From Methylobacterium sp. FF17 (GTDB taxonomy: Bacteria > Pseudomonadota > Alphaproteobacteria > Rhizobiales > Beijerinckiaceae), in contig NZ_CP107532.1 of NCBI RefSeq assembly GCF_025813715.1, forward strand, positions 186,001-250,000: a DNA stretch of 64,000 nt. The letters are read 5' to 3'. The notes beneath the pieces are model-generated. The model did not search any database and was not told where the DNA came from. It saw nothing but the letters and a program-made list of their open reading frames with translations. Position 1 is the stretch's first letter, and each line of letters opens with the position of its first letter. The translations under genes and the position numbers were made by a program. Of the stretch, positions 12,413 to 54,706 are shown in pieces.

Positions 12413-12439
12413 GACATTCGTTGGGCATGATCAGGCAGC

Positions 12440-12736: not shown

Positions 12737-12774
12737 GGTTGGCTCCTCTATCGGTGGCGGATAAGGGGTCGGCC

Positions 12775-22492: not shown

Positions 22493-23155
22493 TCATGAAG
22501 AAATCACCCGCACCGGGCGAGGCGGAAAAGCGGCGTTGTCCATCAACTGCATCTCATGCGCCTGCGCCAGGACCGCCATATGCGGCAACGCGTCGTAGAT
22601 CGTCAGACTTTCCAGGGCTCTGTTGCCGCCAAGTGTCAGGATCGGGTTAAAGCCATAGATCTGCCCGACGCCGAGCTTTCCCAGCTTGGCACATGTCGGC
22701 TTGAAAAGCTTTTTGACCGTTGCGTCATATTCATCGAGGGTCGGATCGTCGATCATCATCAATTGGCTGGTGACGGCCATATTGGGATCGAAGGTCTTGC
22801 CGCTTACAAGAGAAGGGCACGACACCTGGCTGCTCACGAGGTTGATGGCGACGTCCTGATACACTTCATTCCATGCGACGATCGTTCCAAACGCCCCGAA
22901 GCCTAGGGCATGTGTCTGTTCGGGTCTGATCTCGTTGTCGCCATCGAAAACAACCTTCATGATCGAAGCAAATCGAGCGGGATCGCAAAACTGAAAATAT
23001 CCATCCAATACGATCCCGGTCCCATACTGCTCCCAGAACTCGATCATGGCGTCCGGGACTTGGCCCCTATGGCGTTCCATGTCGACCGCTTCTCCGTCCT
23101 TGGGAACGCCGAAGTTTTCCACGATCGAAGCAAGCCTGACCTGGTATTCGTTCAT
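22493..23155 (-). CDS. GAD-like/DUF1851 domain protein, probable orphan T6SS-type immunity protein
   Basis: A 220-residue soluble protein. The N-terminal part (VENFGVPKDGEAVDMERHRG, then VPDAMIEFWEQYG) matches the GAD-like domain, and residues 150-215 (LGVGQIYGFNPILTLGGNRA) match the DUF1851/Tdi1 C-terminal domain; the pair occurs in immunity proteins against type VI secretion effectors such as Tde/Tae-type toxins. No toxin gene is adjacent, so it may be an orphan that protects against foreign effectors. Its G+C is visibly lower and its codon choice more relaxed than its neighbours, which suggests transfer. Confidence 0.65.
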   Translation of the reverse strand: MNEYQVRLASIVENFGVPKDGEAVDMERHRGQVPDAMIEFWEQYGTGIVLDGYFQFCDPARFASIMKVVFDGDNEIRPEQTHALGFGAFGTIVAWNEVYQDVAINLVSSQVSCPSLVSGKTFDPNMAVTSQLMMIDDPTLDEYDATVKKLFKPTCAKLGKLGVGQIYGFNPILTLGGNRALESLTIYDALPHMAVLAQAHEMQLMDNAAFPPRPVRVISS

Positions 23156-28249: not shown

Positions 28250-28609
28250 ATGGTTGGTCGCCCGTCGCGTCGAGATGCCCAAGAGCTCTGCCAGCGCCTC
28301 GAAGGCGCTCGTGCGGATGCCGGGCTGAGCCGTGCTGCCATTGCGCGCGCACTTGGAACCAGCCCCTCCAACCTTCTCAGGTCACTTAGGGCGGGTGGAT
28401 TTTCAGGCGATCTCTCAAGGCGCGTCGAGATGCTGCTTGAGAACGGGGTTTCCGGCATGCGAGACGTGCCCCCCAAGGCACGCGAGGCAGGCGACGACTC
28501 GCTCGACCGGGCGTTGCTTTTATTGCTTGAATTTCGTAGGATGGTTCCGGATCTCGAAAGGGCGCTCGTGGCGGTCCGCCGAGCCGCGAATGCCGAGGAT
28601 GGCCGATGA
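28250..28609 (+). CDS. small helix-turn-helix protein heading an IetAS-type operon
   Basis: A 119-residue protein. Residues 10-60 (LCQRLEGARADAGLSRAAI, ARALGTSPSNLLRSLRAGG) look like a Cro/CI-type helix-turn-helix with recognition helix around SPSNLLRSL; the C-terminal part has leucine-rich helices (LDRALLLLLEFRRM, VPDLERALVAVRRA) suited to dimerisation or partner binding. Its stop overlaps the start of the AAA gene by four bases, so it belongs to the operon. It may be the repressor of the system or a DNA-binding specificity component. The family is not recognised beyond the HTH pattern. Confidence 0.6.
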   Translation: MVGRPSRRDAQELCQRLEGARADAGLSRAAIARALGTSPSNLLRSLRAGGFSGDLSRRVEMLLENGVSGMRDVPPKAREAGDDSLDRALLLLLEFRRMVPDLERALVAVRRAANAEDGR

Positions 28610-29580
28610 CGAGCTCGCGAAACGTCCTGGCGATGATCCGAAGCCATGCCGCCGGTGACAGCGCTCATTTCCTGTCCATCGCGGAACACATCGCGGGCGA
28701 GGCGGCCCGCTCTGGCAAGACGAAGGTCGCCGAGGAAATCACGGCGGCCGTCCAGCGGGCAAAGCTCCAACCCAAGATCTCGAACCCGCCGACTCCGATT
28801 GCGGCCGCACGGGGCGAACTGGCCGGACTGATGCGGGTCACCTATCCGGAGGTCCGCCTGTCGGAACTTGTCGTGGGGCCTGACCTTCAGCGTCGCCTGC
28901 GCCGTCTCGTGCGCGAGCACGACGAAGCCGAGGCCCTGAAGGCGAAGGATCTCTCTCCGCGGCGCAAGTTCCTGTTCTCCGGGCCTCCGGGCACCGGAAA
29001 GAGCATGACCGCAGCGGCCATCGCCGGAGAGCTCGGCCTGCCGCTCTTCACTGTGATGCTGGACGGCATCATCACGAAGTTCATGGGCGAGACCGCCGCG
29101 AAGCTAAGGCTCGTCTTCGACGCGATGCGTGCGACGAGGGGCGTATACCTGTTCGACGAGGTCGACGCCCTGGCCGCACGGCGGGCATCGGAGAATGACA
29201 TCGGCGAGGCTCGCCGGATGCTCAACTCCTTCCTCATGTTCCTTGAGGAGGATAACTCCGGGAGCGTCGTCATCGCCGCCACGAACCTCAGGTCTCTGCT
29301 GGATACGGCGATCTTCCGTCGGTTCGATGCGGCGTTCGTCTACGCGAAGCCCTCCACCGACGAGGCGCGACGGGTCCTGATCAATCACCTCCAGAGCTTC
29401 GCGGTTTCGGACCTTGATTGGACCAGGATCGACGAATGCACGACCGGATTGAGCCAGGCCGACATCGTCTCCGCCGCGGCCGATGCGGCTCGGGATGCGG
29501 TTCTGGACAACTCTTCCGCGCTCACCACCGATATCGTCTGTCAGGCACTGGCTGATCGGGCTAGCATCCACGTAGAGTAG
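28606..29580 (+). CDS. ietA: AAA+ ATPase of an IetAS-type defence pair
   Basis: AAA+ ATPase of 324 residues. Walker A is GPPGTGKS (126-133), pore-like segment FMGETAAKLR (159-168), Walker B YLFDEVDAL (181-189), sensor-1 region IAATN (223-227) and arginine finger RRF (238-240). The N-terminal 80 residues are helical and probably bind a partner. An AAA+ ATPase of this class followed directly by an S8 (subtilisin-like) protease is the composition of the IetAS antiphage pair described in surveys of defence genes. Naming as ietA is by gene content and order, not by a sequence search. Coupled to the HTH gene upstream by a four-base overlap. Confidence 0.75.
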   Translation: MTSSRNVLAMIRSHAAGDSAHFLSIAEHIAGEAARSGKTKVAEEITAAVQRAKLQPKISNPPTPIAAARGELAGLMRVTYPEVRLSELVVGPDLQRRLRRLVREHDEAEALKAKDLSPRRKFLFSGPPGTGKSMTAAAIAGELGLPLFTVMLDGIITKFMGETAAKLRLVFDAMRATRGVYLFDEVDALAARRASENDIGEARRMLNSFLMFLEEDNSGSVVIAATNLRSLLDTAIFRRFDAAFVYAKPSTDEARRVLINHLQSFAVSDLDWTRIDECTTGLSQADIVSAAADAARDAVLDNSSALTTDIVCQALADRASIHVE

Positions 29581-29642
29581 TATTTACGTAATGTAGCGTG
29601 CGGTCGCCAACGGGCGGGCGTACCATCCGGCTGTCGGTGCAC

Positions 29643-32192
29643 ATGGTCGAGCGAACCCCCTACCGCCATATCCATGTCCGGGGCCTCGGGGTCGCCTCGG
29701 CGTCGTTCCGGCCCGTCGTGGGGGGCGGTTCCGACAAGGGCTTTCCGCCGGTCGACAATAGGGCGGCTCATGCGGATATGCTTCGCGATGGTTTGGACAA
29801 GGCCATCGAGCTCATGGATGAGTATCGTTCGGCGCAGAAGGAATCTGGCGTACCGAAGAACAAGCGCGGAATGCCGATTACGGTAGAGGCTCGTCCCGAC
29901 ATCGCCTTGCGGATCGGGCAGAGCCGATCCGGCCAGGGGTTCGCCCTTCTTAACGTCCGGAGAGGGCAATCGGTCGATCCCGAGCGCGGCCCGGAAAATG
30001 ATCATGCCACCTTCTTCACGACGCCCCAGACGCTCGACACCTTCCGTCGCGATCTCGAAAGGTACGCTGCGTGGGAGCCTTCCGAACGGGACCTGTCGAA
30101 CGCGTGGGACGACGATCAGGATGTCCAGCGCCGCCCCCCGCGCTTCAAACTGTTCGAGAGTGCAGCCGGCATTCGTCCGACGACCCTTCTCGACCTCTGG
30201 ACGGACCGGTTCGACCGCTATCCCAGGGCCCGTGGGGAGCATGCCTGGGAAGTCTGGACGCGCATCGATTTCCAGGGCGCCTTCAAACAGGCCGTCGAAG
30301 ATCTCGGATTGCGGAAGTATGGACGGCCATCGGAGTTCATCGATACGGTCGTTCGTGGCCTGATCGCCACGCCCGCCCAGATCCAGGAGGTCGTCCGCGC
30401 CACCGGTGCGGTCGTAGGCCTACGGAGCGCGTCGACCTTCGCATCCGATGACCAGCATCTCCAACCCAGGGACATGACGGGGACCCTCATCGCGCTTGCC
30501 GGCCACATCGTGTGGCCGGGTAAGGACGCTCCCGTCGTGGCAATTCTGGATACCGGCGTCCAGGCGAGGCATCCGCTCCTGGGCGGGGCCCTGCCGGTCT
30601 CTCGCCAGTTCACGGCCGAGCCGTTCTGGGGAACGAACGATCACCATGGGCACGGCACGAAGATGGCGGGCGTCGTGCTCTATGGCGATCTCGCGGCGGT
30701 CCCGACGGACGGACGTCCGCTTCGCATGGCGACTCGCTTGGAGTCCGTGATCGTGACGGGTCCCAAGGGGGCTCCTCCGGTCCCTGCCCGCGATGCCATT
30801 CGCCGTGCCGTCGAGGCCGTCGAAGAGGAGCGGGCCATTCGGGTCTATTGCCTGGCCCAAACCGCGTCGGGCGAGATGGAAGACGGGTTGCCGACCAGCA
30901 CGTCGAGCGTTCTCGATCAACTGGCCTACGGCGACGGGGAAAGGACGCGCCTCTTCTGCGCGGCCGTCGGCAACGTGCCGCATACCGACAACGAACCGTA
31001 TCAGGCCGCATACTACGCCGACCGCAACGCCCAGTTCGGCATCCAATCTCCCGCCCAAGCGCTGAACGCTCTGTCGGTGGGGGCGGTCAGCCTGAAGGAC
31101 ATAAGAACTCCAAAGGCCAACCCGGTCGCACAAGCCGGCGATCTCGCCCCCACTTCCAGGACGGCCCAATCCTGGGCGAAGCTCCATGCGAACAAGCCGG
31201 ACATCGTCATGGAGGGCGGGAATTTCGTGGTCGATGCGGATGGCGTTTTCTGCAGCCCGTCACCGGCTCACTTGGTTCTCACGACATCCGGCCCCGCATT
31301 GACGGCCCCGCTGGCGCTTGTGGGCGAGACAAGCGCCGCAACGGCGGCATGCGCTGGTCTCGCCGGTCGGTTGTTGGCCCGCTACCCGAAACTCCGCATG
31401 GAGACCGTACGGGCGCTCATGGTCCATGCCGCCGAGTGGACGCCGGCGATGCGCGCCCAGCTTTAGGCGGCCAGGAATGCGGGCATTCCGAGGAGCGAGG
31501 CCTACGCGATGCAGATCGGCCGGTTCGGCTGGGGCGTGCCGAACGAGACCCGACTTTTCGAGAGTGCCGGAAACGCCTTGACCCTGATGTTGGAGGACTC
31601 ACTGGAGCCGTATCGGCGTGGGGACGGATCCAGCCTTCCGCTCAAGGAGATGAAGTATTTCAAGCTGCCGTGGCCCGAGGATGCCTTGCGCGCCCTCGGG
31701 GCGACCCAGGTCGAGATGCGCTGTACCCTTTCCTACTTCATCGAGCCCGATCTCCATGCGGTGGCCAGGGACCGGATGGAGCGGTATCCCTCGCACCGTC
31801 TCCGGTTCGACGTGAAGCGGTACGGCGAGGACGACGCCCAGGCACGTGCACGGGTGAACACCCAGGCGGACGAGGGCGACGCCGTGGAGGACACGAGCGA
31901 CGACGGCTGGATACTGGGATCGTTCAGTCGTCATAGGGGGACGCTCCACCACGACATCTGGTCCGGTCCGGCCCACCGGCTCGTTGAGCGAGGCGGCCTC
32001 TCGGTCCTGCCGGTCAGGGGATGGTGGGGGGACACACGTAGGTTCGACCGTGACGGGCGGTCCGTGAACTTCTCCCTGGTCGTATCGATCCGGACCCCCG
32101 AGGCCGGCGGCGGCGACCTGTTCACGGAGGTCGTCGGCAAGATTAAGGCGGCCAACCTCGTTGAGACGCCGGCGGCGGTCGCCGTGACCTGA
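29643..32192 (+). pseudogene. ietS: S8 subtilisin-like protease (IetS type) interrupted by in-frame TAG
   Basis: The frame encodes about 849 residues but is interrupted by TAG at 31464-31466 (codon 608). Before the stop lies the whole catalytic triad: Asp303 in VVAILDTGVQ, His337 in DHHGHGTKMAG and Ser564 in GETSAATAACAG, preceded by a 280-residue N-terminal region (TPYRHIHVRGLG start, typical of AAA-linked subtilases). After the stop the same frame continues AARNAGIPRSEAYAMQIGRF, GWGVPNETRLF and a beta-rich C-terminal domain to 32192. The truncated 607-residue protein could keep protease activity while losing its C-terminal domain. The start is taken as ATG 29643; GTG 29598 is possible. Adjacent AAA gene is 62 bases upstream. 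Confidence 0.78.
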
Positions 32193-32204: not shown

Positions 32205-34076
32205 TCACGACATCCGGGCCATGACGTCGCCGTGGCACAGATAGGCGTAGGGCGTCGCAGAAGCGTTCCGGTAGCATTCGCGGGCTTCCCGCATCGCCTC
32301 CCCGAGCGTTTGGCCGTTCAGCAAGCCCGTGATCTGATCATGGACCACGGATGAGGCGAGCGAGTCCTGGATGGCCCAGATCGGCGCGAGAATCCCACCG
32401 AACCCCCTGTCCGCCAAGCTTGCCGGCCAACCTCCGACGACACCGAGAGTATGGTTCGCGACACCGATTGAGCATGCGTTCAAGACCGCGAACGTACCGT
32501 CCTCCATCCCGAGGACGACGCCTCCGTTGACCTCCATGTGCGAGACCCACCCATCGCTCATCCGGAGTCCTTCGGACCCGGCTTCGCCCCTTTCGCCGGG
32601 CGGGTTGGCATGACCTGCGAAGTGGAGGATCGAAACGCGCGCGTCCGGTTGCGATCGGCACAGGAAATTTGTGAAGCCCCCGCATGTCGCTTCTCCGATT
32701 TCGGCGCCATGCTCCGAAATCAGCTTCCGGCCTTCCTCCACGGCGTCCGGCAGGCCTGAACCGTCATCGTACTCGGGAACGAAGCTGACGATCCGCCCCT
32801 TCGAGAACCCTTCGAGCATGCCTCCTTCGCACTCGCCGAACCAACGCGCCACCGGATGGGACATGAAGATGTGATCGGCATCCGCGATCCCGGCGTTGGC
32901 ATCGGGATACATCATCTCCCAGGGGACGTGAGGATCGTTCGTCACGAACTGTATCGGAAAGCGCGGACCGTGGATGGCGCGCAGTTCGGCGAAGAGCGAC
33001 TTGAAGTGGCCGGGCGTAGCCTTCCAAATCCGTTCGCCAATGCCTCTCAGCACGTTGGCATGCGTGCGACCCGGTGGCAGTGACGGACATCGATCCAACA
33101 GGTCGCGGGCGAAGCTGGCCGTACCCTCCTTGAGGTGGATTTCCTCCATCCACGATACGGTCTTGAATCGTGTGGGCCCCTGAAGGGCCTTGAGGCTCCA
33201 CATCAGCTTCCCGGGACTTGAGCCCTCCATGATCTTGACCGTCAGGACCGGTTTCTCGGCATTGCGGACGAGTTGGATGCCACGCCCGGCCGGAGGCATG
33301 CCGACCGCGATCCCCTGCGTCCCCGACTTGGTTCCCTTTTGTATCGGTATCCGTCGGACGGCGGCGCCGGCATGACGGTCCTGGTACTCGAACATCACCG
33401 ACATCTTACAGATGCTGCCTACCTCGGCATCCGGCCTGATCCTGCCCCTGAAGACCGCAGGGCGAGACGAGCCGTCCGGCATGATCGCGATGATGCCTTT
33501 CCCATCCTCGGGACGTTCGAAGACGATGGCCGGGAAATTGACCTCGGCGGTCACCTGCACCTCCGTCCACCCGGCCGGCAGGTCCCTGAGTTTCACAGGG
33601 TCACCCTCGGTCATTCCGTCGGGTGTCGGCGCGAGGTCTACCTTGAATTGGAATATCTCACCGGGGGACGCATCCCCGTCCGGGGTCACCGAAGGGTAAC
33701 GGGTCAGTGATTCCGACGGCGGCACCGCGGTGGCGGTCTCGACCCAGGGTGCGTTGGCGCATTCGAATGGCGCGGTCACTTCCAGGTCGTTGCGCAGGCT
33801 TTCGGCGGCGTTGCGGAACATGGCCCCCAGCCCGGCCTTCACCTTTTCGCTCGTCACGCTCCCGGTCAGGGCAATCGCCGTTCCGGCAAGCGTTACCTCC
33901 ATCCCGTAGATCTCGCGTGCGAGCTTGTAGACCGACGAGCGTATCCTCGACCAAGGCTCTTCCTCGACCGTCGGCCCGTCGGTGTCGATGAGCCCGAACG
34001 CGATCCAGTTACCCGCATCCACGACGCCGCCCTTGCGCCATGCCCAAGTCCAATGTCCGGCACCGTCGGTGGTCAT
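32205..34076 (-). CDS. CHAT-domain (caspase-like) protease
   Basis: A 623-residue protein whose C-terminal 250 residues form a CHAT/caspase-like peptidase: DPHVPWEMMYP (381-391) is the typical entry to the domain, catalytic His489 lies in SILHFAGHANP and catalytic Cys535 in FAVLNACSIG. Residues 1-110 and a beta-rich middle part (about 130-285) are not recognised; they may sense the trigger. CHAT proteases of known bacterial systems cleave a partner protein after activation. Its ATG overlaps the stop of the lipase gene by four bases, so the two are made together and the lipase is the obvious candidate substrate or effector. The operon carries a LexA box upstream. Confidence 0.85.
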   Translation of the reverse strand: MTTDGAGHWTWAWRKGGVVDAGNWIAFGLIDTDGPTVEEEPWSRIRSSVYKLAREIYGMEVTLAGTAIALTGSVTSEKVKAGLGAMFRNAAESLRNDLEVTAPFECANAPWVETATAVPPSESLTRYPSVTPDGDASPGEIFQFKVDLAPTPDGMTEGDPVKLRDLPAGWTEVQVTAEVNFPAIVFERPEDGKGIIAIMPDGSSRPAVFRGRIRPDAEVGSICKMSVMFEYQDRHAGAAVRRIPIQKGTKSGTQGIAVGMPPAGRGIQLVRNAEKPVLTVKIMEGSSPGKLMWSLKALQGPTRFKTVSWMEEIHLKEGTASFARDLLDRCPSLPPGRTHANVLRGIGERIWKATPGHFKSLFAELRAIHGPRFPIQFVTNDPHVPWEMMYPDANAGIADADHIFMSHPVARWFGECEGGMLEGFSKGRIVSFVPEYDDGSGLPDAVEEGRKLISEHGAEIGEATCGGFTNFLCRSQPDARVSILHFAGHANPPGERGEAGSEGLRMSDGWVSHMEVNGGVVLGMEDGTFAVLNACSIGVANHTLGVVGGWPASLADRGFGGILAPIWAIQDSLASSVVHDQITGLLNGQTLGEAMREARECYRNASATPYAYLCHGDVMARMS

Positions 34077-35461
34077 GCCCTGGCGCCCGGATCGAGGACC
34101 AGGAAGATGTCGTCGACCGTGGCCAGTCCCTTTCCGCCGACCGATGCACGGTAGAGTCCTGGCTCCAGCGACACCTCGGCACGGAAGATGCCGTCCCGTG
34201 GTCGAAGGAAGACGGTGCGTGGCGCCGCCGGCTCATCGATCCGTTCGACGGTCCCGTTTAGGGACTGGAGGTATCCGGTCGGCACGGCTTCCAGGTGCAC
34301 GGGCTCATCGGCGCGATAGGCGTCCTGTATCGACAGGCGGATCGGTGCGCCGCCGGCGTGGCCGGTGCGGAACTTGCCAAGGTCGATGCCGGCACCCGTC
34401 ATCACGCCCTTCAGGTGGTCGAGGGCCGCCGGCACGGACTGCAGGGCGGAGTGAGACGTCGCGACATACGTCACGGAGGCCTCCTTGTCGCCGATGGGAA
34501 TGGCCGAGACCCGGGGTACCGTTCCGTCGCCGCCATGATCCTTGCCCTCATGGGCCCGTACGGGGGTCAGTACCTCGTCCTTCAGGGAAGCGGATTGCCA
34601 GGTCGGCTGGTTGATGCCCACGACCGGGCGAATGTTCATCCCCGATGCCAGGTAGCCCTGGATGCCATCGTTCGATGCCCGCGCTGCCTGCATCTCGTCG
34701 TGGAACGCCTTCGCCCTGAGAACGCGGGCGGCATCGAGATGCGGAAGGGCGATCTCGGAGATGCGGGCCAGTTCGGTGCCGCCGTGCTCGACAAACGGGT
34801 AGACAGGCAGGAGTTGGTAGGCCGAGTCGAAGGACCGAAGGGCGTCCGTGCCGTCGAAGGCCGACACGGAACCGACCTTCCAGGTGAACCCGTTGCAGAG
34901 GAAGTCCACCGCGTTGCCCGCACCTCGATAGGGCGTGCCGAAGCTGACCATCGTGCGGACGATCTTCCAGCCCTCAAGGCACTCCATGAAATATCGGCCG
35001 ACGAGCCCGCCCATCGAATGCGAGACGAGCACGATCTTGGCGTTCTCGTTCCCGCTGCTCGTCTTCCACTTTGCGAGCCACTGCGGGGCGACCCTCGCCA
35101 GCTTCCGTGCGGAGACGCGGTTGTCCCGACGCCAGTCGTAGGGGAACTCGAAATAGTTTTCGCCGCGGGTCAGCCCGAGACGCGAAACGAGGTCTGCGCC
35201 GAGGCGGGAGTACCCGCCCTGTTTCCAGAGACGCGGAATGATCTCGGGGTTTGGAACCAGCCCCGACGCGACGATGCCGTCACCGAGATCCTCGTCGCCG
35301 TTGTCCTCGCCCGTCAGTCTAAGGCGGTCGAGGTTCTCGCCGATTATGGTTCCCCAGAGCGCGCCAGGTGAGGTGCCCCATAGGGGCTTGCCATCCTTAG
35401 TCAGGACGGAACCGATCAACCCGGGCAGCACCACGACGACATCACCGAAACCGCCTGCCAT
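34073..35461 (-). CDS. LCAT-type alpha/beta-hydrolase (phospholipase/acyltransferase-like)
   Basis: A 462-residue alpha/beta-hydrolase resembling lecithin:cholesterol acyltransferase. The oxyanion region VVVLPGLIGSVL opens the protein; YFEFPYDWRRDN is the lid/LCAT signature; nucleophile Ser149 is in VLVSHSMGGLVGRYF; the acid is Asp312 in GGDGTVPRVSA; His337 follows in VATSHSAL. The C-terminal 110 residues (from about 350) are a beta-sandwich-like extension. There is no signal peptide, so the enzyme would act on the inner face of its own membrane, as expected for a suicide effector. Start ATG 35461 has GGGGGAG eight bases upstream. First gene of the operon with the CHAT protease. Confidence 0.85.
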   Translation of the reverse strand: MAGGFGDVVVVLPGLIGSVLTKDGKPLWGTSPGALWGTIIGENLDRLRLTGEDNGDEDLGDGIVASGLVPNPEIIPRLWKQGGYSRLGADLVSRLGLTRGENYFEFPYDWRRDNRVSARKLARVAPQWLAKWKTSSGNENAKIVLVSHSMGGLVGRYFMECLEGWKIVRTMVSFGTPYRGAGNAVDFLCNGFTWKVGSVSAFDGTDALRSFDSAYQLLPVYPFVEHGGTELARISEIALPHLDAARVLRAKAFHDEMQAARASNDGIQGYLASGMNIRPVVGINQPTWQSASLKDEVLTPVRAHEGKDHGGDGTVPRVSAIPIGDKEASVTYVATSHSALQSVPAALDHLKGVMTGAGIDLGKFRTGHAGGAPIRLSIQDAYRADEPVHLEAVPTGYLQSLNGTVERIDEPAAPRTVFLRPRDGIFRAEVSLEPGLYRASVGGKGLATVDDIFLVLDPGARA

Positions 35462-35610
35462 TCAGGTCTCCCCCGCTTGTGTCACCGCCGATACGAATAC
35501 CGCTGGTCGTGCCGATTGCTCGATCTCCGCCGGTCCGTGGACGCCGATCCGCCGACATGATCGCCGGGTCGGACGAGGACGCTTCGGGGCAGGATCGGTG
35601 ACGGGGTCGG

Positions 35611-35631
35611 ATTATAGAACGTACGACGAAC
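35611..35631 (-). promoter_or_regulatory. promoter with LexA (SOS) box for the lipase-CHAT operon
   Basis: On the minus strand the sequence is GTTC-GTCGTAC-GTTC directly followed by TATAAT (35616-35611). GTTC-N7-GTTC, equal to GAAC-N7-GAAC on the plus strand (35617-35631), is the alphaproteobacterial LexA site, and TATAAT is a perfect -10 hexamer. LexA bound here would cover the core promoter. The lipase ATG is about 150 bases downstream. No -35 hexamer is clear. Confidence 0.7.
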
Positions 35632-35824: not shown

Positions 35825-38800
35825 CTACACGGTACGGGGATCATTCGGCCGGCTCGCGGACCTCCGAGGGGGCCGGCCAGTTTCGGGCGAGGCGGCCGAA
35901 CACGCCGGCATCGGCCCAGGCCTGGCGGGAGCCGACGACGTAGAGGTTCTCCTGGGCTCGGGTCGCCGCGACGTTGAGGATGTTCGGCGGTCCCCCCGCC
36001 CACCCGCCCACCCGCGCGCGCCGCGCTGGGTCGGCATCGGCGCCCCGAGGACGAGGATCACGCTGTCGGCCTCGCGGCCCTGGACGGTGTGGATCGTGCC
36101 GACGCGCTCGCGCGTCCAGCGATAGGGGTCCATTGTCCAGCGGGACAGTACCCCGGCCGCCGTGATGCGTTCGCGCAGGCGCTGGGCCACGATGAGGAAC
36201 GGGCTGATCACGTAGAGATCGACGGCCGGTACTTCGGCCGCCGACAGGCGACGCAACATGTCGATCACGGCGACGCCCTCGGCGTCCGACCACTTGTCCT
36301 CGGTCCGCCCGCCGGTGACGTCGACCCAGTGCGATCCCCCCAGGACGTCCCGGATGACGGACGCCCGGCGCGGCGTCGCGTGGACCATCAGGCCCTGGTA
36401 GGCGACCTCGTTCGAGAGGGTGAACATCGGATCGGCGCAGCGCCGGTGGACCAGCAGGGGGAAGCCGACCCGCACGGAGCCGACGGTCTGGCGGAACTCG
36501 GCGACGTAGGTGGCGGAGGCGTCTGCGACCGCCTGCACCGAGGCCTTGGGGGCGTTCCAGCGGCCGGGATCGATTCCGAAATCGGCGCAGATGGTCTCGG
36601 AGAGCTCGGTCGGCAGGGACGTCACCGGCTCGATCTGCAGGGGGTCGCCGACGACGACGGCGCGTCGTGTCCGCGTGATCGCCCCGATGGCGGCCTGGGG
36701 CACGGCCTGGCCCGCCTCGTCGACGAGGAGCCAGCCCAGCGTCTCGGGCGGCAGGTAGCCGAGCATGCGGGTGACCGAGGCGAAGGTGGTCGAGACGACA
36801 GGGACCACGAGGAACAGGGTGGCCCAGAGGTCGGGCATGTGCGGCTTGGTCTTGGGCTGCCAGGCGTTCCGGCCGATGAGCGCCTTGAATAGGTTCTCCA
36901 GGTTGCTCCGGATGGGCTCCGCCGCCGCATCGATGAAGGCCTTGTGGAGCGCCAGGGCGAGTTCGAACACACGGTCGCGCTGGCGGTGGGCGGCCATGTC
37001 GAGCCATGGCGCCGCCTTCTGGACGGTGTCCCGATCCCTTGCGAAGAACGCCGCGTCGACGATGCCGGTGCCGCAGCGTGTTCGCATGAGCTTCACCCGA
37101 GCCTCGGCAGTATCACGGGCGGCGGTCGCGGCCCGGAGGGCCTCCTTGCCCGAGGCCTTGGAAGCCTCGGCCTCGCGCAGCCGGTGCCGGGTACGATCCG
37201 CCTCGCCGAACGCCCGGCGTTTCTCGGCGTCGGCCCTGTCGACGGCCTTGGAGAGTTGCGCGTCGCTCGTCGCCCAGTCCTTGGCAGAGGTCGTCCGGAA
37301 GACGCGCGCTAACAGGCCGGGCCGACGCGGGGCATGGCCCGCCCGGGCCTGATGGGCGCGGTCCCGGGCCTGCGATGCGACGGCGGCCGCATCCGTCGCC
37401 TCGCGGTGTTCCCGTTCGCTCGTGGCCGCCCCGGCATCCGCCCCGGCGACCGCCCGACGCGCCTCGTTGACCGCGTCGCGCAATCGGGGAAGGGTGCCGA
37501 CGACCTTGCGGGCGGCCTCGATCTCGGCGAGGAAGTCGCGGACCCGGGTCACCTCCTCCGTGAAGGCCGTGCGGGCCTCGCGCCAGCGCTTGAGCGCGTC
37601 CGTGCGATTGCGCGGCGGGTTTTCGCGCTCGACCACGACGGGGCGCCGCCTGCGCTTGCGGGTCGAGTCCGCGGGGTCGGGCTCCTCGATCCATTGCGGA
37701 CTTCCGGCGGCCTCGGCGAGGTAGGCGCGCAATCCCTTGTCCGGGTCGATCCACATCGCCTCCCGGAAGGTGAAGCGGTTCGAGGCGTTCCCGAGCACGG
37801 CGGCGATCAGGCCCCAGGCCTCGACGTCGCCAGAGACGTTGTCCGCGACCGTCTTGAAGTAGCGCAGGCCGGTGGCGTCGTCGGCGATGGCTTTGAGGGC
37901 CGGCAGTTCGCGGCTGACGTTCTCGACGGCCTTGTTGTTCGAGGAGGCGACCAGCATCTCGAAGCCGCGCAGGCGGAGGTCGACCCTATGGACCGGGACG
38001 GTCGCGGTGCCGATCCTCGGCCGGTACCCGGATGCGGGAAACGCCTTCTCGGGATCGTCGAAGCCGCACATCGCCCCGGCACGCCGAACGACGAGCGAGG
38101 CGACCATGTCCCGCAGGAGCGTGGTCTTGCCGGTGCCGGGCGGCCCGTTGACGGGAAACAGGTCGACGCCTTCCAGGTCGGACATCGCGAGGTTCACGGC
38201 GCCCTGCTGGAGCAGGACGAGGGGATGGCGTCCGGCCGCGGGCCATCGGCCGATAGGGAACCGCGCCGGCGCCACCGCGGCGGCGATGACGGTGTCGTCG
38301 GCCAGGACGTCCTTGCGGGCCTTCGGCTTGTCGATGCCGAGGTATCGGCGGAGGTTTGTCGTGGTCTTGCCTTCGACGACCTGGCGGCGGGCGCTCGCCA
38401 GGTCTTCCAGGTAGAAGCTGCCGAGAAGGGGGGCGTCGGGCGGGTCCTGCGCCATCCAGTAGTGGTAGACCCTCATCGCAAAGGAGGGTGGCTCGATCAG
38501 GCTCGAATGCAGGCCCAACTCCGAGACCAGCCAATCGAATGCGGCCCGGATCGCACGCCCGTCGAGGGGAACGGGTTTTCCGTCGTCGCCGGCGCGGCGG
38601 ATGCGGCGGTCGAGGCCTTCGTTCAGGCGCGTCTCGGCCTCCGGCCATCGCCCGAGCCCGACGAGGTCCCGCCGCAGGGCGAGGGGCAGGCCCCAGGCGA
38701 AGCTGGAGATAGCCGTCGCCTCGCCCTCCGCCACCGGCACGCCGGCCTTGTCGAGGGTCACGGTCGCGATGGCCGCGAGCCCGGCGGCACCGCGACGGTC

Positions 38801-39403
38801 CTGGTTCTTGTCGACGAAGACCGACAGCAGGGCGTTCGTGGCCTCGTCCATGCGGATCGCGCCGAGGACCACCTGATAGAACAGTTGCTTCTGGGGCCTC
38901 GCCCTCTCGCCCGGTGGTTGCCAGGGCATGGATTGGGTGATGTCGGCGATGCGTCGCTGGTCCCCGTCCGCCATGTCGGCCGGCTTCCGGTAGGTCATCG
39001 GCGAGAGCACCTCCAAGGCCGTCCAGGCCGAGAGGATGTCCTCGGGGCGGTCGCGGACGGGTCGAGAGGTCGGTTGCGGTCCCGGCCTCGTCCAAGGCGG
39101 CGGCTCGCTGTCGAGACGCGACGTCGATGCCGTCGGCTCGTCTTCGGGCGGTGGCGATGGACGTGCACCTGCTGAGTTCGACCCCGCCGCGGCTTCCTCG
39201 CCGGCGCCACGTCGCCTCTGCCGGCCAGGCTCGCGGTTCGGGTTCGCGAGGGCCTTCTCGACCTTTGTGCGGAGCTTTTCGGCGCTAGGCGTCGTGCGAT
39301 GACCCAGTTCCGCCAAGAGCGCATCGAGGATGTCCCGGTCATCCTTCGTGGCTTCGAACACGCGTTCGAGGTCGGTCACGCGCAACGGCTGATAGGGTCT
39401 CAT
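35825..39403 (-). CDS. Upf1-like superfamily 1 helicase with coiled-coil insert (3' frameshift)
   Basis: A protein of about 1190 residues. Residues 1-120 hold a charged, Pro-rich linker; the helicase begins near 400 with Walker A NGPPGTGKTTLL (GPPGTGKT 420-427). A long Ala/Arg/Glu-rich insert (about 600-810) is likely coiled coil. Motif II is LLVDEAGQA, motif III VVVGDPLQIEPV, and motif V VGTIHTVQGREADSVIL. The expected motif VI, NVAATRAQENLYVVG, lies in a different frame that ends at 35841, so there is a frameshift between about 35992 and 36021 in a G/C repeat tract; the predicted tail after GARGWAGG is not native. Such helicases are frequent in defence islands. Faces the lipase operon in the same direction with a 360-base gap. 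Confidence 0.8.
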   Translation of the reverse strand: MRPYQPLRVTDLERVFEATKDDRDILDALLAELGHRTTPSAEKLRTKVEKALANPNREPGRQRRRGAGEEAAAGSNSAGARPSPPPEDEPTASTSRLDSEPPPWTRPGPQPTSRPVRDRPEDILSAWTALEVLSPMTYRKPADMADGDQRRIADITQSMPWQPPGERARPQKQLFYQVVLGAIRMDEATNALLSVFVDKNQDRRGAAGLAAIATVTLDKAGVPVAEGEATAISSFAWGLPLALRRDLVGLGRWPEAETRLNEGLDRRIRRAGDDGKPVPLDGRAIRAAFDWLVSELGLHSSLIEPPSFAMRVYHYWMAQDPPDAPLLGSFYLEDLASARRQVVEGKTTTNLRRYLGIDKPKARKDVLADDTVIAAAVAPARFPIGRWPAAGRHPLVLLQQGAVNLAMSDLEGVDLFPVNGPPGTGKTTLLRDMVASLVVRRAGAMCGFDDPEKAFPASGYRPRIGTATVPVHRVDLRLRGFEMLVASSNNKAVENVSRELPALKAIADDATGLRYFKTVADNVSGDVEAWGLIAAVLGNASNRFTFREAMWIDPDKGLRAYLAEAAGSPQWIEEPDPADSTRKRRRRPVVVERENPPRNRTDALKRWREARTAFTEEVTRVRDFLAEIEAARKVVGTLPRLRDAVNEARRAVAGADAGAATSEREHREATDAAAVASQARDRAHQARAGHAPRRPGLLARVFRTTSAKDWATSDAQLSKAVDRADAEKRRAFGEADRTRHRLREAEASKASGKEALRAATAARDTAEARVKLMRTRCGTGIVDAAFFARDRDTVQKAAPWLDMAAHRQRDRVFELALALHKAFIDAAAEPIRSNLENLFKALIGRNAWQPKTKPHMPDLWATLFLVVPVVSTTFASVTRMLGYLPPETLGWLLVDEAGQAVPQAAIGAITRTRRAVVVGDPLQIEPVTSLPTELSETICADFGIDPGRWNAPKASVQAVADASATYVAEFRQTVGSVRVGFPLLVHRRCADPMFTLSNEVAYQGLMVHATPRRASVIRDVLGGSHWVDVTGGRTEDKWSDAEGVAVIDMLRRLSAAEVPAVDLYVISPFLIVAQRLRERITAAGVLSRWTMDPYRWTRERVGTIHTVQGREADSVILVLGAPMPTQRGARGWAGGRGDRRTSSTSRRPEPRRTSTSSAPARPGPMPACSAASPETGRPPRRSASRPNDPRTV

Positions 39404-39533: not shown

Positions 39534-40910
39534 TCACGTCTCGACCCCAGCCTTGAAGGTCATTCCGTTCCCGGCCAGCGAGGCCTCGGTCCGGGTCTGG
39601 CGCTCCCATGCCAGGATCAGGGCGTCCGCCGCCCGGAGGTCTTTGGAGGAGGCCCCGGCGACCGTCAGGCGGTGGGGGCCCAGCATCCAGGTCTCGCCCG
39701 CCCGGCACACGCTGGGCTCGTCCGTCACCTGGATGTCGCGCGCCTCCTCCTCCTCCTCGGGCGGCGGCGCCAGGACTGCGGCGTAGTCCTGCACCTCCTG
39801 CTCGGAGAACCCGATGTCGAGGAGCGACAGGTCGAACTCGAACTCCCCGGCCTGGATCGCCTCCTCGATGAAGGCGAGCTGTTCCGCCACGACCCTGTCG
39901 TTCCACCCCGAGTTCAGGGCGACCTTGTTGTCGGCGAGCACGAGGGCGGCGCGCTGCGCATCGCTCAAGCCCGGGCGGCGGATCACCGGGACCTCGGCCA
40001 TCTTGAGGCGCTTGGCCGCCTCCAGGCGCCCGCGGCCCGCGATGATGGTGTCGTGCTCGTCCACGATGAGCGGGACGAGGAAGCCGAACTGCCCGATCAG
40101 CGCGACGAGTTGGGCGATCTGGTCCTCGCCGTGCGTACGTGCGTTGGCCGCGTACGCAGTCAGGGTGCGCACCGCGACGAGTTCGGTCCGCGCGTACCGG
40201 TTCGGACCCTCGGTGCGCACCGACAAGCCGTTGTCAGTCATGGGAAACCCCGAGGTGCGTACCCAAACGATTTCTGTGTGACTCCGTCGCCCTTGCGCCC
40301 ATGCGACCTCCGGGATCGGCGCATCCGGGAAGGACCCGTGACGGGGGGCCTGGCCGACGATTCGATGACCCGTCGCCTGCTCGACGGCGCCGTGCGCACC
40401 TCGGCGGTGGTCGAAGGTACGCACCACCCGGTCGACGAGCGCGCTATCGAGGTCGAGCTCCCCGTCCGCGCACTTGACGACCCGCCTGTTGGGGCTGGCC
40501 TCGGGCACGGCATGGGCGACGGCCTGGCATGCGGCCTCGACGGTCATGCCGGCGTGCACCAGCGCCACGATGGCGAGGGCGGGGGATCGGGACAGGCCTG
40601 CGTGGCAGTGGACCAGGATGCGCTGCGGGGCGCGCTCGTGGAGGAAGCTGAGGAATCGGCGCACATGGAACCGCGTGCAGGCCTCGATGCCCCGGCGGTT
40701 CAGGCTGCCATCGAAGCTGGTGGTGCCGTCCCATTCCGCGTCGTTGAAGGACAGGCGAAGGTGGGGCACGCCGGGAAGCGGCTGGACGGGCCAAGCCGGG
40801 CTGTGGACTGACACGACGGCATCGGGGTGCCAGGCATCGAGAGCGCGTCGAGCGAGGACGTGGAGACCTGCACGGGGCGCCTTCCGGAAAGGCGGGGGCC
40901 CGGTACGCAA
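39534..40910 (-). CDS. dual-specificity-type phosphatase fused to a ParB-like domain
   Basis: One uninterrupted frame of 458 codons with two modules. Residues 1-190: a cysteine-dependent phosphatase with general acid region FNDAEWD (Asp57) and P-loop HCHAGLSRSP (Cys102, Arg108, a perfect HCx5R). Residues 224-458: a ParB/sulfiredoxin-like domain (NARTHGEDQIAQLVALIGQF, IIAGRGRLEAAKRLKM, VIRRPGLSDAQRAALVLADN), as found at the front of phage ParB-methyltransferases, but the methylase part with its DPPY motif is missing. ATG 40241 is an internal start that would give the ParB part alone (235 residues), so this may be two genes that have lost the stop between them rather than a functional fusion. 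Confidence 0.7.
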   Translation of the reverse strand: MRTGPPPFRKAPRAGLHVLARRALDAWHPDAVVSVHSPAWPVQPLPGVPHLRLSFNDAEWDGTTSFDGSLNRRGIEACTRFHVRRFLSFLHERAPQRILVHCHAGLSRSPALAIVALVHAGMTVEAACQAVAHAVPEASPNRRVVKCADGELDLDSALVDRVVRTFDHRRGAHGAVEQATGHRIVGQAPRHGSFPDAPIPEVAWAQGRRSHTEIVWVRTSGFPMTDNGLSVRTEGPNRYARTELVAVRTLTAYAANARTHGEDQIAQLVALIGQFGFLVPLIVDEHDTIIAGRGRLEAAKRLKMAEVPVIRRPGLSDAQRAALVLADNKVALNSGWNDRVVAEQLAFIEEAIQAGEFEFDLSLLDIGFSEQEVQDYAAVLAPPPEEEEEARDIQVTDEPSVCRAGETWMLGPHRLTVAGASSKDLRAADALILAWERQTRTEASLAGNGMTFKAGVET

Positions 40911-41704: not shown

Positions 41705-43789
41705 CTATCTGAACGCCTGTCGGGCCAGCATGCGCTTTCTTTCGTCGCTGAGGGCCCTCACCCTGTCGGCCAGCGCGCCGACGTTGGCGATGCGTTCCTC
41801 GCGCGACATCGTCGACCATGCCTTGGTCGGAGCCGGAACCGGAGCGCTGGGCCCGTTCGTGGAAGACAGGGACGCAGGGATAGCCTCGACCCTCGCTTGC
41901 GGGGGACGAGCAGGACGCAGCGCAGGGACGGGCGCCACGGCCTCCTGCCTCACGGGTGCGGGGGAATCTACCCTGGATGGGGGACGTGCCCAGCTGCTCC
42001 CCACAGGAGCAGGAGGGGGCGGAGATTCCCTCAGGAGCGCAGCGGCGTCAGCGGCGGCCTTGGCCTCGGCCCGCACCTGTCTGAGGGCGACCTGGAGGAA
42101 GGCCGGGAAGGGTGTGGGGGCGGAGGAAGGGGGAACGTCAGGGACGGGTGCGGGCGGAGCAAGAGGGGTCGGAGAAGGGGTAGCCAGGACCACGGGGCGG
42201 AGAGAAGGACGACGGGGCGGAGCAACTCTCACCTGTACGACGGGGCGGAACGGGGCCTCCGGAGAGGGGGTGGCCAGAAGGGACGGAGCAAACCCCGAAG
42301 CCTTCGGCAAGCGGCTCTCCTTCCCCTCAGGGAGCGGGGCGGTCACCCCGGCGGCAGGACAGCTCACGGGCTCCGCAAAAGGGGTCTCCAAGACGGATAG
42401 GGTATTCCCCTGCCCCTCCGGAGAAGGGGCGATCTCGGGCTCCGCAGGAGAGGTCTCCCCCAGGGAAGGAAGGACACCCACGACCCCCGGGACCACCCCC
42501 AAGGGGGTATATCGGATCGTTTGGTCCGAACTCCTTAGAAAGACTGGTGAAAAGGTCGAAATCGTTTGAGCCATCACGTCCCCCATTATGGCGGTCACCG
42601 CGACGCCTTTGGAACCCGGTGCGATGAACGAGTCGTGCACGGGCAGGACGCCGATCTGGGCGGCCCGACACCGCTTCATCACTTCGTGCGCCATGCCGGA
42701 ATCGATGTTCATGAGCTTGATGCCGGCATCGCTCCCGATGTCGTCGGCGATGAGGGGATTGGCCGCCTGCACGGCCTCGACGATGCGCCTCGTCTCCGCG
42801 GGCCCATAGACCCATACGGGCTCGCCATCCTCGTCCATCTCGTACCGCTTCTCCAGCAGCGCGCCGATGCCCTTCGGGATCGTCTTGGCGTTGAGCACGA
42901 CGTTGAGCGCCAGTTTTCCGGCGTCCCGATGCCATGCTTTCGTGACGTACGGATCATGCTGGAGGACGTGGCCGCGCATGGCGTACAGGAGCCGCGGATG
43001 AATGGCCGAGAAGTCCGGCTCGATGGCCAGCTCGCCGTTGATTAGGAGCTCGGCCCTCCTGGACTTGGGCAGGCTCTGCCACCATCCGTACCAGCGTCCG
43101 TGCCGGTCCCAGCGTCCACGCCCATACACCCGGTAGACCGCGGGGGTTGGGGTGGGCCTGACGCACGTCCAGGTCTCGCCGTTCCGCTTGACCTTCCGCG
43201 CATGAAGGTGGTGCGCCGAGCGCCTCCAGTCCTCGGGGTTGGCCTTAGGGCTGATTCCGACCTCGATGCCGCCGAGATAGCTATTGATGTCCTCGACCTC
43301 GGCCACGAGGCGCCGGGTCAGCGCTGTCTCGCGGTAGTTGATGCGGGTGCCATCCTCGTCCTTCAGGACCAGGGGGCAGCGGGTGCCGACGTATGACAGG
43401 TCGACGCCTTCCGCGAGGGACATGAGCAGGTCCGTAGCGATCATGCGGCTTTGGTGGCCGTGGGTCAGGTGTGAGCCGGGCTTGCTCCTCATCTCCTCGA
43501 TCAGGCCGGCCTCGGCGATCTCGGCGACGGCAAGCCTGACGTTTGAGTAGGAGTAGTCCGTGCCTTCGTACCGGCCTTCGGCGGCGTAGAAATCCCGCGA
43601 GCGGGAATACGAGACCCACGGCCGGTCGGAATCGCCGGCGAGGACGAGGGATGCCAGGACCGAGTTGCGGGCCCGGCGGTAGGACGAGCGACCGAGTTCA
43701 GTGAGGCCGGCGGCGGAGGCGAGGTCGTCCGTGGCGCGCCAATGGAAATCGAGGGCGCGGGCATCAAGACAACGGGGGTCGAACGACAT
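41705..43789 (-). CDS. protein with a family A DNA polymerase-like palm domain
   Basis: A 694-residue protein not obviously in a named family. Residues 80-120 look like a winged helix. Residues 250-400 carry, in order, counterparts of the three Pol I palm/finger motifs: motif A IEPDFSAIHPRLLYAMRG (Asp259; compare DYSQIELR), motif B HRDAGKLALNVVLNA (Arg288, Lys292) and motif C VLPVHDSFIAP (His385-Asp386; compare VHDE), with the helix MNIDSGMAHEVMKRC before motif C as in Pol I. There is no 3'-5' or 5'-3' exonuclease domain. Residues 430-640 are Pro-rich and low-complexity, and a charged helix ends the protein. It could replicate a phage or plasmid. The second metal ligand at motif C is Asp386, with Ser in place of the Glu. 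Confidence 0.6.
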   Translation of the reverse strand: MSFDPRCLDARALDFHWRATDDLASAAGLTELGRSSYRRARNSVLASLVLAGDSDRPWVSYSRSRDFYAAEGRYEGTDYSYSNVRLAVAEIAEAGLIEEMRSKPGSHLTHGHQSRMIATDLLMSLAEGVDLSYVGTRCPLVLKDEDGTRINYRETALTRRLVAEVEDINSYLGGIEVGISPKANPEDWRRSAHHLHARKVKRNGETWTCVRPTPTPAVYRVYGRGRWDRHGRWYGWWQSLPKSRRAELLINGELAIEPDFSAIHPRLLYAMRGHVLQHDPYVTKAWHRDAGKLALNVVLNAKTIPKGIGALLEKRYEMDEDGEPVWVYGPAETRRIVEAVQAANPLIADDIGSDAGIKLMNIDSGMAHEVMKRCRAAQIGVLPVHDSFIAPGSKGVAVTAIMGDVMAQTISTFSPVFLRSSDQTIRYTPLGVVPGVVGVLPSLGETSPAEPEIAPSPEGQGNTLSVLETPFAEPVSCPAAGVTAPLPEGKESRLPKASGFAPSLLATPSPEAPFRPVVQVRVAPPRRPSLRPVVLATPSPTPLAPPAPVPDVPPSSAPTPFPAFLQVALRQVRAEAKAAADAAALLRESPPPPAPVGSSWARPPSRVDSPAPVRQEAVAPVPALRPARPPQARVEAIPASLSSTNGPSAPVPAPTKAWSTMSREERIANVGALADRVRALSDERKRMLARQAFR

Positions 43790-44146: not shown

Positions 44147-44358
44147 GTCACAGGACGGGGGATTCGGACCTCGCATGCCGTCCGGCCGGATGGGCCGGTC
44201 AACCTTGACGTCGGCCAGCCCTAACGAGCTGGTAGCCCTAAAGAATTGGGCATACCAGATTTTGTGGTTGCAAGCCCCGATGGCACAATTCTGCCCAACG
44301 AATCCTGCGGAGGATTCGACCGGTCCCAACGCGGACCTTGCCTGTGGGGGCATCCACC

Positions 44359-44664
44359 GTGTTCGACGACACCTTTGACACCCTGACCGAAAACCCGCGC
44401 GCCGGGCAGATCCGCCCCCGGCCCTGCGCCACCGACGATTACCTCAACGACAAGGCCGACATCCTGGACCTCATCCGCAGGCGCATCGCCGAGCGGGAAC
44501 TTGAGCCCAAGGACATCCGGAAGACCATCAAGGGCTGGCGCCCGGAAGAGCACTGCCGCGTCACGAGCGGGTTTTACGACTGCGACATCAGCCAGCGCCG
44601 CGCCTACCAGCTCGCGGCCGCCGTCGGGCTCAGGCGGACGAAGTCGCTCCCCTGGGGCCTCTGA
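44359..44664 (+). CDS. hypothetical protein at the head of the lysis region
   Basis: About 101 residues from GTG 44359 (VFDDTFDTLTENPRAG), with GTGGGGG nine bases upstream; a longer TTG start at 44338 is possible. The middle is charged and helical (DKADILDLIRRRIAERELEP) and the end reads SGFYDCDISQRRAYQLAAAV, which resembles a helix-turn-helix. I do not know the family. It is the first plus-strand gene after the stem-loop region and may be an early regulator. Confidence 0.5.
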   Translation: MFDDTFDTLTENPRAGQIRPRPCATDDYLNDKADILDLIRRRIAERELEPKDIRKTIKGWRPEEHCRVTSGFYDCDISQRRAYQLAAAVGLRRTKSLPWGL

Positions 44665-44805
44665 AATCGTCGGCCATCGCGGAACCACCCGGTGACCATG
44701 TGTTGGCGGATGCACGGCCGGGCGGTCCCCTAGGATCACGGTGCACCCCGGCGATCTGCCCCCAGCCTCCTCATCGGAGCGCCGTCCTCGATCCCCCGAG
44801 ACGGC

Positions 44806-45376
44806 ATGCCCCGCACCCGAATCCTCGCCCTCGACCTCGCGACCGTAGGCGCTGCCGCATGGACGGTCGGCGAGCTCGGTCGCGTCGACACGATGCATTT
44901 CGATCTGCGCGAGCGGGCCGGCGTCTCCAAGGCCAAGCAGGCCTCGTCCCACGGCGCCCTGTTCGTCGCCCTGCATGCCCTCGTCACCGACCTGATCGAC
45001 CTGGCGGACCCCGAGGTCATCGCGGTCGAGAAGGACACCGGCCGGGGCTACTCGATCCTCGTCATGCTTGGGGGGCCTGAGGGCCATCGCCGAGCTCGCT
45101 GCGGCCGAGCGGGGCATCCGGTGCATCACGGATCTCGACGCCTCGACCGCACGGGCCCTGGCCGGCGTCGGTGGCGGCGCCACCAAGAAGGAGGTCGCCG
45201 GCGCCCGGGCGCGGATGCTGTTCGGCCTCCCCACCCAGACCGATGACGAGGTCGACGCCGTCATCCTCCATGCCGCGGTCGAGGCCCGCCTCAAGGCCGA
45301 GGCGATCCAGGCCCTCCTGAAGTCCACCCCCCGTCGCAAGGCCCCCCGGGCCCTCACCAAGAGGAGGGCCGCATGA
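44806..45376 (+). pseudogene. RuvC-like resolvase frameshifted in a G6 tract
   Basis: A phage-type RuvC-fold nuclease of about 190 codons. The first frame (ATG 44806) gives RILALDLATVGAAAWTVGE with the first catalytic Asp and ADPEVIAVEKDTGRGYSILV with the Glu; after a run of six G near 45070-45075 the sequence continues one frame over as LRAIAELAAAERGIRCITDL and DEVDAVILHAAVEARLK, which holds the last two acids. One inserted G explains the break. It may be a sequencing error, a true mutation or slippage. The stop overlaps the start of the holin-like gene by four bases. Confidence 0.7.
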
Positions 45377-45612
45377 GGCTCGTCGACAACATCGAGTGCG
45401 TCCTCAAGCACGCATGGTCGCTCAAGTTCACCGCGCTGCTCCTGGTTCTCGATACCGCCCAGGGTAGCGTCGCCTTCTTCGCCGGTTCCGAGCTCGTCAG
45501 CCCGGTCACCCTGACCGCCGCGAACATCGGGCTCGGGCTGGCGTCATTCCTCGCCCGCTGCGTCGCTCAGGAGAAGGTGTCCGGCTCGGCCGCACCGGGA
45601 GGCGAGGCATGA
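45373..45612 (+). CDS. small membrane protein, holin-like
   Basis: A 79-residue protein with two hydrophobic segments (LKFTALLLVLDTAQGSVAFF and LTAANIGLGLASFLARCVAQ). The size, topology and position directly before the endolysin gene, overlapping it by four bases, are those of a phage holin or holin-like protein that lets the endolysin reach the wall. No sequence signature fixes the family, so the role is from context. Confidence 0.65.
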   Translation: MRLVDNIECVLKHAWSLKFTALLLVLDTAQGSVAFFAGSELVSPVTLTAANIGLGLASFLARCVAQEKVSGSAAPGGEA

Positions 45613-54128: not shown

Positions 54129-54205
54129 TGGCGACCCCGGTTGGGCTCGAACCAACGACCTGCCGCTTAGAAGGCGGCTGCTCTATCCAGCTGAGCTACG
54201 GAGTC
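54129..54205 (-). tRNA. tRNA-Arg (anticodon TCT)
   Basis: A complete cloverleaf on the minus strand: acceptor GACTCCG/CGGGGTC, D arm AGCTCAGCTGGATAGAGC, anticodon arm CCGC-CTTCTAA-GCGG with anticodon TCT, T arm GTTGG-TTCGAGC-CCAAC and an encoded CCA. Its 3' end faces the phage-derived block, the usual orientation for integration of phages and islands at tRNA genes. Confidence 0.95.
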
Positions 54206-54691: not shown

Positions 54692-54706
54692 GAACAAATA
54701 GAGAAC
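54692..54706. promoter_or_regulatory. LexA (SOS) box
   Basis: GAAC-AAATAGA-GAAC on the plus strand is an exact GAAC-N7-GAAC alphaproteobacterial LexA site. It lies just upstream of the small minus-strand gene ending at 54439. Confidence 0.7.

Follow-up and report, generated by a model that had tools for sequence, protein, structure and literature searches.

A candidate abortive-infection module joining an LCAT-type lipase and a CHAT protease to a convergent IetAS operon in Methylobacterium sp. FF17

The lipase–CHAT gene pair

We analyzed a 64,000-nucleotide stretch of the Methylobacterium sp. FF17 genome (hereafter the window; contig NZ_CP107532.1, positions 186,001 to 250,000), in which two minus-strand genes encode an LCAT/group XV phospholipase A2 (PLA2)-like lipase and a CHAT-domain cysteine protease (Table 1). 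The original prediction, made from the DNA alone, had taken this pair for a candidate undescribed, SOS-controlled suicide operon of two genes. The coupled open reading frames (ORFs) that it described were recovered, overlapping by 4 nt; it had missed, however, a convergent operon on the plus strand (28250-32192) that encodes a small helix-turn-helix (HTH) protein, an IetA-type ATPase and an IetS-type subtilase and runs toward the pair.

Table 1. Genes and promoter features of the locus, with positions in the window
Feature	Positions	Strand	Evidence
Small HTH protein, 119 amino acids (aa), overlaps ietA	28250-28609	+	HTH Pfam matches below cut-off
IetA-type AAA ATPase, 324 aa	28606-29580	+	PADLOC IetA 4.8e-64; AAA 2.7e-27
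IetS-type subtilase, N-terminal part with S8 domain, stops at in-frame TAG	29598-31466	+	S8 1.4e-39; IetS 9.9e-29
Rest of IetS, same frame after the stop, 227-aa ORF	31509-32192	+	IetS 5.4e-8
CHAT-domain cysteine protease, 623 aa, His489/Cys535	32205-34076	-	Pfam CHAT E 1.1e-5
LCAT/group XV PLA2-like lipase, 462 aa (proposed membrane effector)	34073-35461	-	Pfam LCAT E 2e-14
TATAAT -10-like hexamer, directly after the box	35611-35616	-	Direct reading; conserved in L094
LexA-type box GTTC-N7-GTTC, GTTCGTCGTACGTTC	35617-35631	-	Motif search; conserved in L094
MkoC-like SF1 helicase (neighbouring defence gene, not a core part)	35825-39403	-	PADLOC MkoC 2.3e-47

By sequence and predicted fold, the lipase is assigned to the LCAT/group XV PLA2 family of alpha/beta-hydrolases with a Ser/Asp/His triad, and its activity is predicted from this membership. 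A PDB profile search matched human group XV PLA2 (E 3.4e-9), and the ten best Foldseek matches of an AlphaFold 2 model (predicted local distance difference test score 80.5) were lysosomal PLA2 or LCAT; a beta-sandwich forms the C-terminal domain (about residues 374-456). The triad that had been proposed, Ser149/Asp312/His337, proved invariant across 23 lipases and is kept in 8 copies of the locus, and, also as proposed, no signal peptide is apparent, since on direct reading the first strand of the fold stands at the very start of the protein. The protease belongs to the CHAT family by its fold and its His/Cys pair, although its Pfam match lies only slightly above the cut-off (25.5 vs 24 bits). 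His489 and Cys535, named beforehand as catalytic, are invariant across 16 CHAT proteins, and the pair is kept in 9 locus copies. The N-terminal part, which the original prediction had left unassigned and cast as a sensor, contains in a model of modest confidence a BON-like domain (about residues 42-100) and an Ig-like sandwich (about 122-248). No NTPase domain was recognized in the protein, which is therefore not an obvious stand-alone sensor. PDB sequence searches with CHAT gave 0 matches, and some of its distant relatives carry TCAD7.

We then tallied the partners of the lipase family, taking the directly adjoining same-strand gene at 31 of 80 lipase loci, namely those with at least 115 bits to the lipase hidden Markov model (HMM); locus (L) and genome (G) numbers are our own. 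A caspase-fold protease adjoins the lipase in 8 of the 31, either CHAT (L003, L005) or C14 (L007, L012, L014, L017, L019, L021), with C14 fused to STAND-type domains in five of these six. In a further 10 the neighbour is a STAND-type or VMAP gene (L004, L009, L015, L016, L020, L025-L028, L030; the STAND matches of L027, L028 and L030 fall below the Pfam cut-off), and in two it is a TPR or TPR-PIN protein (L011, L029). The neighbour was not recognized or not scanned in the remaining 11, those of L002, L010, L022 and L031 being outside the Pfam scan. Among 242 Bradyrhizobium genomes, 6 carry the lipase, and a CHAT gene adjoins it in 5 of the 6 (L109, L110 and L111 by HMM; L112 and L114, both TPR-CHAT, by Pfam); in the sixth (G943) the locus has decayed, and CHAT left no trace in the stretch searched. 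Natural lipase–CHAT fusions also exist (P0017 and L066, with weaker HMM evidence for L069 and L065). Since the pairing recurs, we rejected an accidental adjacency of the two genes; the expectation that they would be found together elsewhere was borne out as a recurrent pairing of the lipase family with caspase-fold or STAND-type genes.

The distribution is patchy. Full-length CHAT was present in 2 of 99 relatives, the FF17 genome counted, and a class-wide sample of 337 genomes gave a lipase match at E<=1e-20 in 3, again including FF17. The lipase alignment had 0 matches in 15 genomes of family f28, and a scan of viral contigs gave 21 pattern matches, of which 0 were confirmed. Together with the defence genes nearby, this distribution agrees with the link to defence that had been suggested for the locus. 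On a Ti plasmid (L191, 5593-11687), a metallophosphoesterase gene overlaps a CHAT gene and faces two more CHAT genes, a possible CHAT–effector pair of another kind.

The promoter of the pair carries a LexA-type box touching a TATAAT hexamer, and direct reading of 35611-35631 confirmed this arrangement. The motif is not rare in the window (4 found vs 1.62 expected, a count reached in 10 of 100 shuffles). It also stands about 70 nt 5' of the HTH-coding part of lexA, both in FF17 (G000) and in G007, and the genome-wide counts were 168 vs 61 for a backward control in FF17 and 149 vs 81 in G007. Between the window and L094, the corresponding locus of G007, the promoter forms a 50-column block with only 2 differences, both within the N7 spacer. 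Surveying both orientations over the 500 nt 5' of the lipase, we found the exact box in 4 of the 8 loci (window, L094, L180, L091), at a simulated chance of 0.012-0.029 per region, the window and L094 being close kin; in L180 it lies at -100 from a lipase start moved to the downstream ATG that fits the alignment and at -25 from the first start. Other spacers of 3-12 gave 0 or 1 of the 8 loci. The exact box further occurs within 800 nt 5' of ietA in 3 of 7 loci (L109, L110, L094), and L090 has none there. Because of the lexA site, the L094 block with its spacer-only differences and the boxes in 4 of 8 loci, we consider the box more than chance; a chance resemblance to a LexA site was rejected with less certainty, the window count alone being compatible with it. 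A box of LexA-regulon type is thus in place, and of the SOS control that had been proposed the operator motif stands, while control itself is suggested by motifs that some loci lack. Elsewhere in the window, a further LexA-type box with an AT-rich spacer lies at 54692-54706 (-), near a tRNA-Arg at 54129-54205.

Clade-specific linkage to a convergent IetAS operon

The gene order HTH > IetA (AAA ATPase) > IetS (subtilase) facing < CHAT < lipase is not peculiar to the window. A convergent IetS lies beside CHAT and lipase in 8 loci: the window, L094 (G007), L180 (G1013), L090 (a Rhizobium acidisoli plasmid), L091 (an Agrobacterium Ti plasmid), L109 and L110 (Bradyrhizobium contigs) and L089 (a Bradyrhizobium plasmid). 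The block therefore recurs in Methylobacterium-like, Bradyrhizobium, Rhizobium and Agrobacterium DNA. IetA is also present in 7 of the 8, with an HTH-like ORF 5' of ietA in 7 of 7 loci; two AAA ORFs that lie immediately 5' of the lipase, in L109 and L180, match IetA weakly (4e-26, 5e-27), one of them having an M41 domain, and were not counted as IetA. Gaps between lipase and CHAT range from -29 to +61 nt across locus copies. CHAT identity between lineages is low (34-41%, and 30-33% for L180), so the block is not a recent copy.

Because 6 of the 8 lipase-bearing loci had come to light through the lipase or CHAT and a seventh was the window, we searched with IetS alone. Matches were obtained in 18 of 397 genomes of the order, 35 of 242 Bradyrhizobium and 11 of 111 of the window's genus, 62 distinct genomes in all. 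The scores were bimodal, with five genomes above 1000 bits (G000, G007, G1013, G813, G871) and the next at 649, and CHAT and lipase are present in all five. Of these, only G1013 was new; it had been picked by IetS alone, and CHAT and lipase were then found there. Conversely, both genes were absent from all 9 lower-scoring IetS loci fetched (L181-L189), and in the order sample, of which the IetS and CHAT searches each drew 397 genomes, the 6 that matched CHAT at 1e-10 include none of the remaining 17 with IetS. In the IetS tree, the 8 linked IetS and that of L190 (9 rows) are separated from 15 others by a branch with support 100/99.9; the trees left out ORFs below 600 aa (L126, L138, L139) and L121, which is the window again, and the window IetS entered by its first piece only. 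An AAA ATPase, IetA, followed by an S8 subtilase, IetS, here interrupted by a stop, is the arrangement of IetAS, but IetAS is not the whole system at these loci, a clade-specific CHAT–effector operon being attached. Judged by this phylogeny, the convergent HTH-IetA-IetS operon belongs to the same unit as the pair. The pairing in the original two-gene scheme therefore holds, and its unit size does not.

One member of this IetS clade, L190 on an Agrobacterium plasmid, has CHAT, IetS and IetA and no lipase match. In the lipase's place, directly upstream of CHAT-IetAS (4131-13322), are a caspase gene, a gene for a 421-aa protein and a gene for a metallo-beta-lactamase (MBL)-type protein matching PADLOC LmuA (1.2e-62) and Avs1a (1.7e-41), which together look like a canu operon. 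As this operon has its own caspase, it could be a second system beside CHAT-IetAS.

We also compared synonymous differences (pS, per 50 codons) between the window and L094. These were 0.02-0.29 in the helicase, except for a frameshifted last segment at 0.65, and low in the HTH gene (0.35, 0.13), ietA (0.08-0.27) and the first 250 residues of the lipase (0.13-0.25). By contrast, they were high in lipase residues 251-450 (0.33-0.49) and CHAT (0.34-0.66); those of IetS, also high, were mostly 0.36-0.59, with two segments at 0.25 and 0.19. A single recombination tract with the lipase C-terminal half, CHAT and IetS would be the simplest reading.

Several further features were seen around these genes. 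L094, too, has the MkoC-like helicase upstream of its lipase, in intact form (PADLOC MkoC 4.4e-55). An AAA-M41 (FtsH-like) protease gene lies upstream of the lipase in G1013 (L180, 13680-15875), and Tn7-like genes (TniQ, TniB, DDE transposase) adjoin the block on the Rhizobium acidisoli plasmid (L090, 1577-6584). In a decayed Bradyrhizobium locus (L113, 7550-10665), IetS and lipase fragments face each other, and CHAT and IetA were not traced in the stretch searched. The window itself also encodes a protein of which one part resembles a dual-specificity phosphatase and another a ParB/type II methyltransferase (39534-40910), large minus-strand ORFs with no Pfam family at the cut-offs used (41705-43789, 44221-45411, 56020-59445) and a GAD-like/Tdi1-type protein resembling type VI secretion immunity proteins (22493-23155, -).

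Proposed mechanism and competing explanations

We hold it about evenly balanced that the lipase and CHAT are the executing arm of a convergent abortive-infection module of five genes, triggered by IetAS and armed through LexA. The lipase would be a cytoplasmic group XV PLA2/LCAT-like phospholipase held inactive, and the BON-like and Ig-like domains could hold CHAT near the membrane or its target. Since CHAT has no recognized NTPase, the IetA/IetS pair probably supplies the trigger, upon which CHAT would cleave or otherwise activate the lipase. The activated enzyme would then hydrolyse the cell's own inner-membrane phospholipids, so that phage spread is stopped. If LexA represses the operon in Methylobacterium-like strains, as the boxes suggest, DNA damage would arm the module. 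A fuller version, which we put forward tentatively and with some doubt, is an SOS-armed two-protease cascade in which IetAS senses infection and acts through CHAT on a latent phospholipase, the IetAS–CHAT core being constant and the effector exchangeable (phospholipase or MBL nuclease). Were this correct, proteolytically activated suicide enzymes would extend from pore formers and nucleases to phospholipases, the IetAS family would gain a possible downstream target, and the module would be tied to the LexA network. The natural swap of a nuclease operon for the lipase, and the natural losses of IetA and CHAT, allow a direct test of the order in which the parts act.

A number of observations weigh against this interpretation. 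The window IetS (29598-32192) has a single in-frame TAG right after its S8 domain, whereas IetS is intact in relatives including L094, and, compared with L094, the adjacent helicase gene has a frameshift at its 3' end; because of these two lesions, the window copy may be decaying. L089 has an open lipase and CHAT but no IetA match and an IetS short of about 230 N-terminal residues, so IetAS may not be needed. That both loci keep lipase and CHAT open may mean either that IetAS is dispensable or that the pair is harmless without it. Lipase–CHAT pairs also occur without IetAS in the stretch examined at L003, L005 and L111. PADLOC models match neither the lipase nor CHAT, the CHAT model is of modest confidence, and in the lipase neither a loop blocking (gating) the active site nor a cut site was demonstrated. 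The exact box was not found 5' of the lipase in L090, L109, L110 and L089, and one of 136 control tetramers (CCGA) also reaches 4 of 8 loci. The mosaic amounts to a single recombination event (n=1), whose tract is contiguous by nature, and the Bradyrhizobium pair lacks such a contrast (synonymous divergence, dS, 0.58-0.70).

Some of these points bear on a different explanation, which we regard as possible without favouring it, namely that the lipase and CHAT are a self-contained two-gene abortive-infection system and IetAS a separate defence system sharing the island. It would account for lipases adjoining CHAT, C14 or STAND-type genes elsewhere without IetAS, for IetAS without the pair in all 9 other-clade loci fetched, and for an open lipase and CHAT where IetS is interrupted (window) or truncated (L089). 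What it does not readily explain is that the convergent order persists within a single IetS clade, in 8 loci and L190, at about 30-41% CHAT identity between lineages, or that G1013 was discovered by IetS alone. IetAS is a Ti-plasmid stability pair, and 4 of the 9 loci are on plasmids typed as conjugative (L089, L090, L091, L190), from which one could argue for a plasmid or island addiction module that kills cells losing the replicon; as the other 5 loci come from genome assemblies, including two on contigs 5.7 and 6.2 Mb long, and as the LexA boxes suggest damage and not replicon loss, we think this unlikely.

The lipase-then-CHAT order with its range of gaps resembles toxin–antitoxin operons, as would be expected if CHAT restrained the lipase by degrading or sequestering it until a trigger removed CHAT. 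Relatives, however, fuse caspase folds to STAND-type domains, and the caspase–enzyme pair that has been studied activates its enzyme, so that restraint seems rather improbable. Proteins of the LCAT fold are often metabolic, but an ordinary lipid-metabolism enzyme next to an unrelated protease gene would hardly be so patchy (full-length CHAT in 2/99 relatives, lipase in 6/242 Bradyrhizobium) or have defence neighbours, and we give this explanation very little credence.

Comparison with known systems

The five-gene module proposed here has counterparts among several known systems, of which IetAS is a component. The IetA and IetS proteins match the PADLOC models for IetAS, but they form a separate IetS clade with a convergent CHAT–effector operon, which is absent from the 9 other-clade loci fetched. 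Bacterial gasdermins likewise involve a protease-triggered membrane effector for suicide, but here an enzyme expected to cut lipids takes the place of a pore former; the protease's partner is LCAT-type, and no gasdermin model was among the PADLOC matches of ten neighbouring genes. Gasdermins are mentioned in the accessible parts of PMC12799240 and PMC13236601. Unlike in Craspase TPR-CHAT/Csx29, no TPR or CRISPR effector was seen here, and the CHAT N-terminus differs.

Related, too, are the conflict systems of Kaur et al. (eLife 2020, 10.7554/eLife.52696), whose accessible text describes caspase and alpha/beta-hydrolase pairs, predicted to cooperate, in VMAP/MoxR-vWA and GTPase conflict systems, and states that the caspase domains of VMAP proteins always occur with a neighbouring alpha/beta-hydrolase gene. 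The accessible part of a 2021 paper lists alpha/beta-hydrolases among effectors hydrolysing membrane lipids. The window shares the pairing of a caspase-superfamily protease with an alpha/beta-hydrolase gene, and, because in Lentzea (L015) a VMAP-M2 gene stands next to a member of this lipase family, the lipase probably belongs to the same hydrolase group. It differs in its IetAS operon partner, its BON-like/Ig-like CHAT and its LexA-type operator. No MoxR, vWA, VMAP or STAND gene was recognized beside the window pair in a Pfam scan of ten genes of 24-44 kb; an AAA_5 protein lies at 49684-51297, 14 kb away.

In the canu system (Tuck et al., Science 2025, PMC12799240), as far as the accessible text goes, a caspase-family protease stands in an operon with the enzyme it activates, a gated nuclease is activated by trypsin or caspase partners, and the authors think other classes of proteolytically activated enzymes possible. 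The protease–enzyme operon is common to both, and a canu-like operon replaces the lipase in L190, but the window effector is an LCAT-type phospholipase-like hydrolase and not an MBL nuclease, and a gating insertion was not demonstrated in it. The IetAS–CHAT–lipase assembly, the effector swap and the LexA link were not found described in the literature searched, most subscription papers and bioRxiv lying outside it. Of the claim that the system was undescribed, the assembly is thus what remains: this kind of caspase and alpha/beta-hydrolase pairing was predicted in 2020 and caspase-activated pro-nucleases were shown in 2025, while the five-gene assembly seems new.

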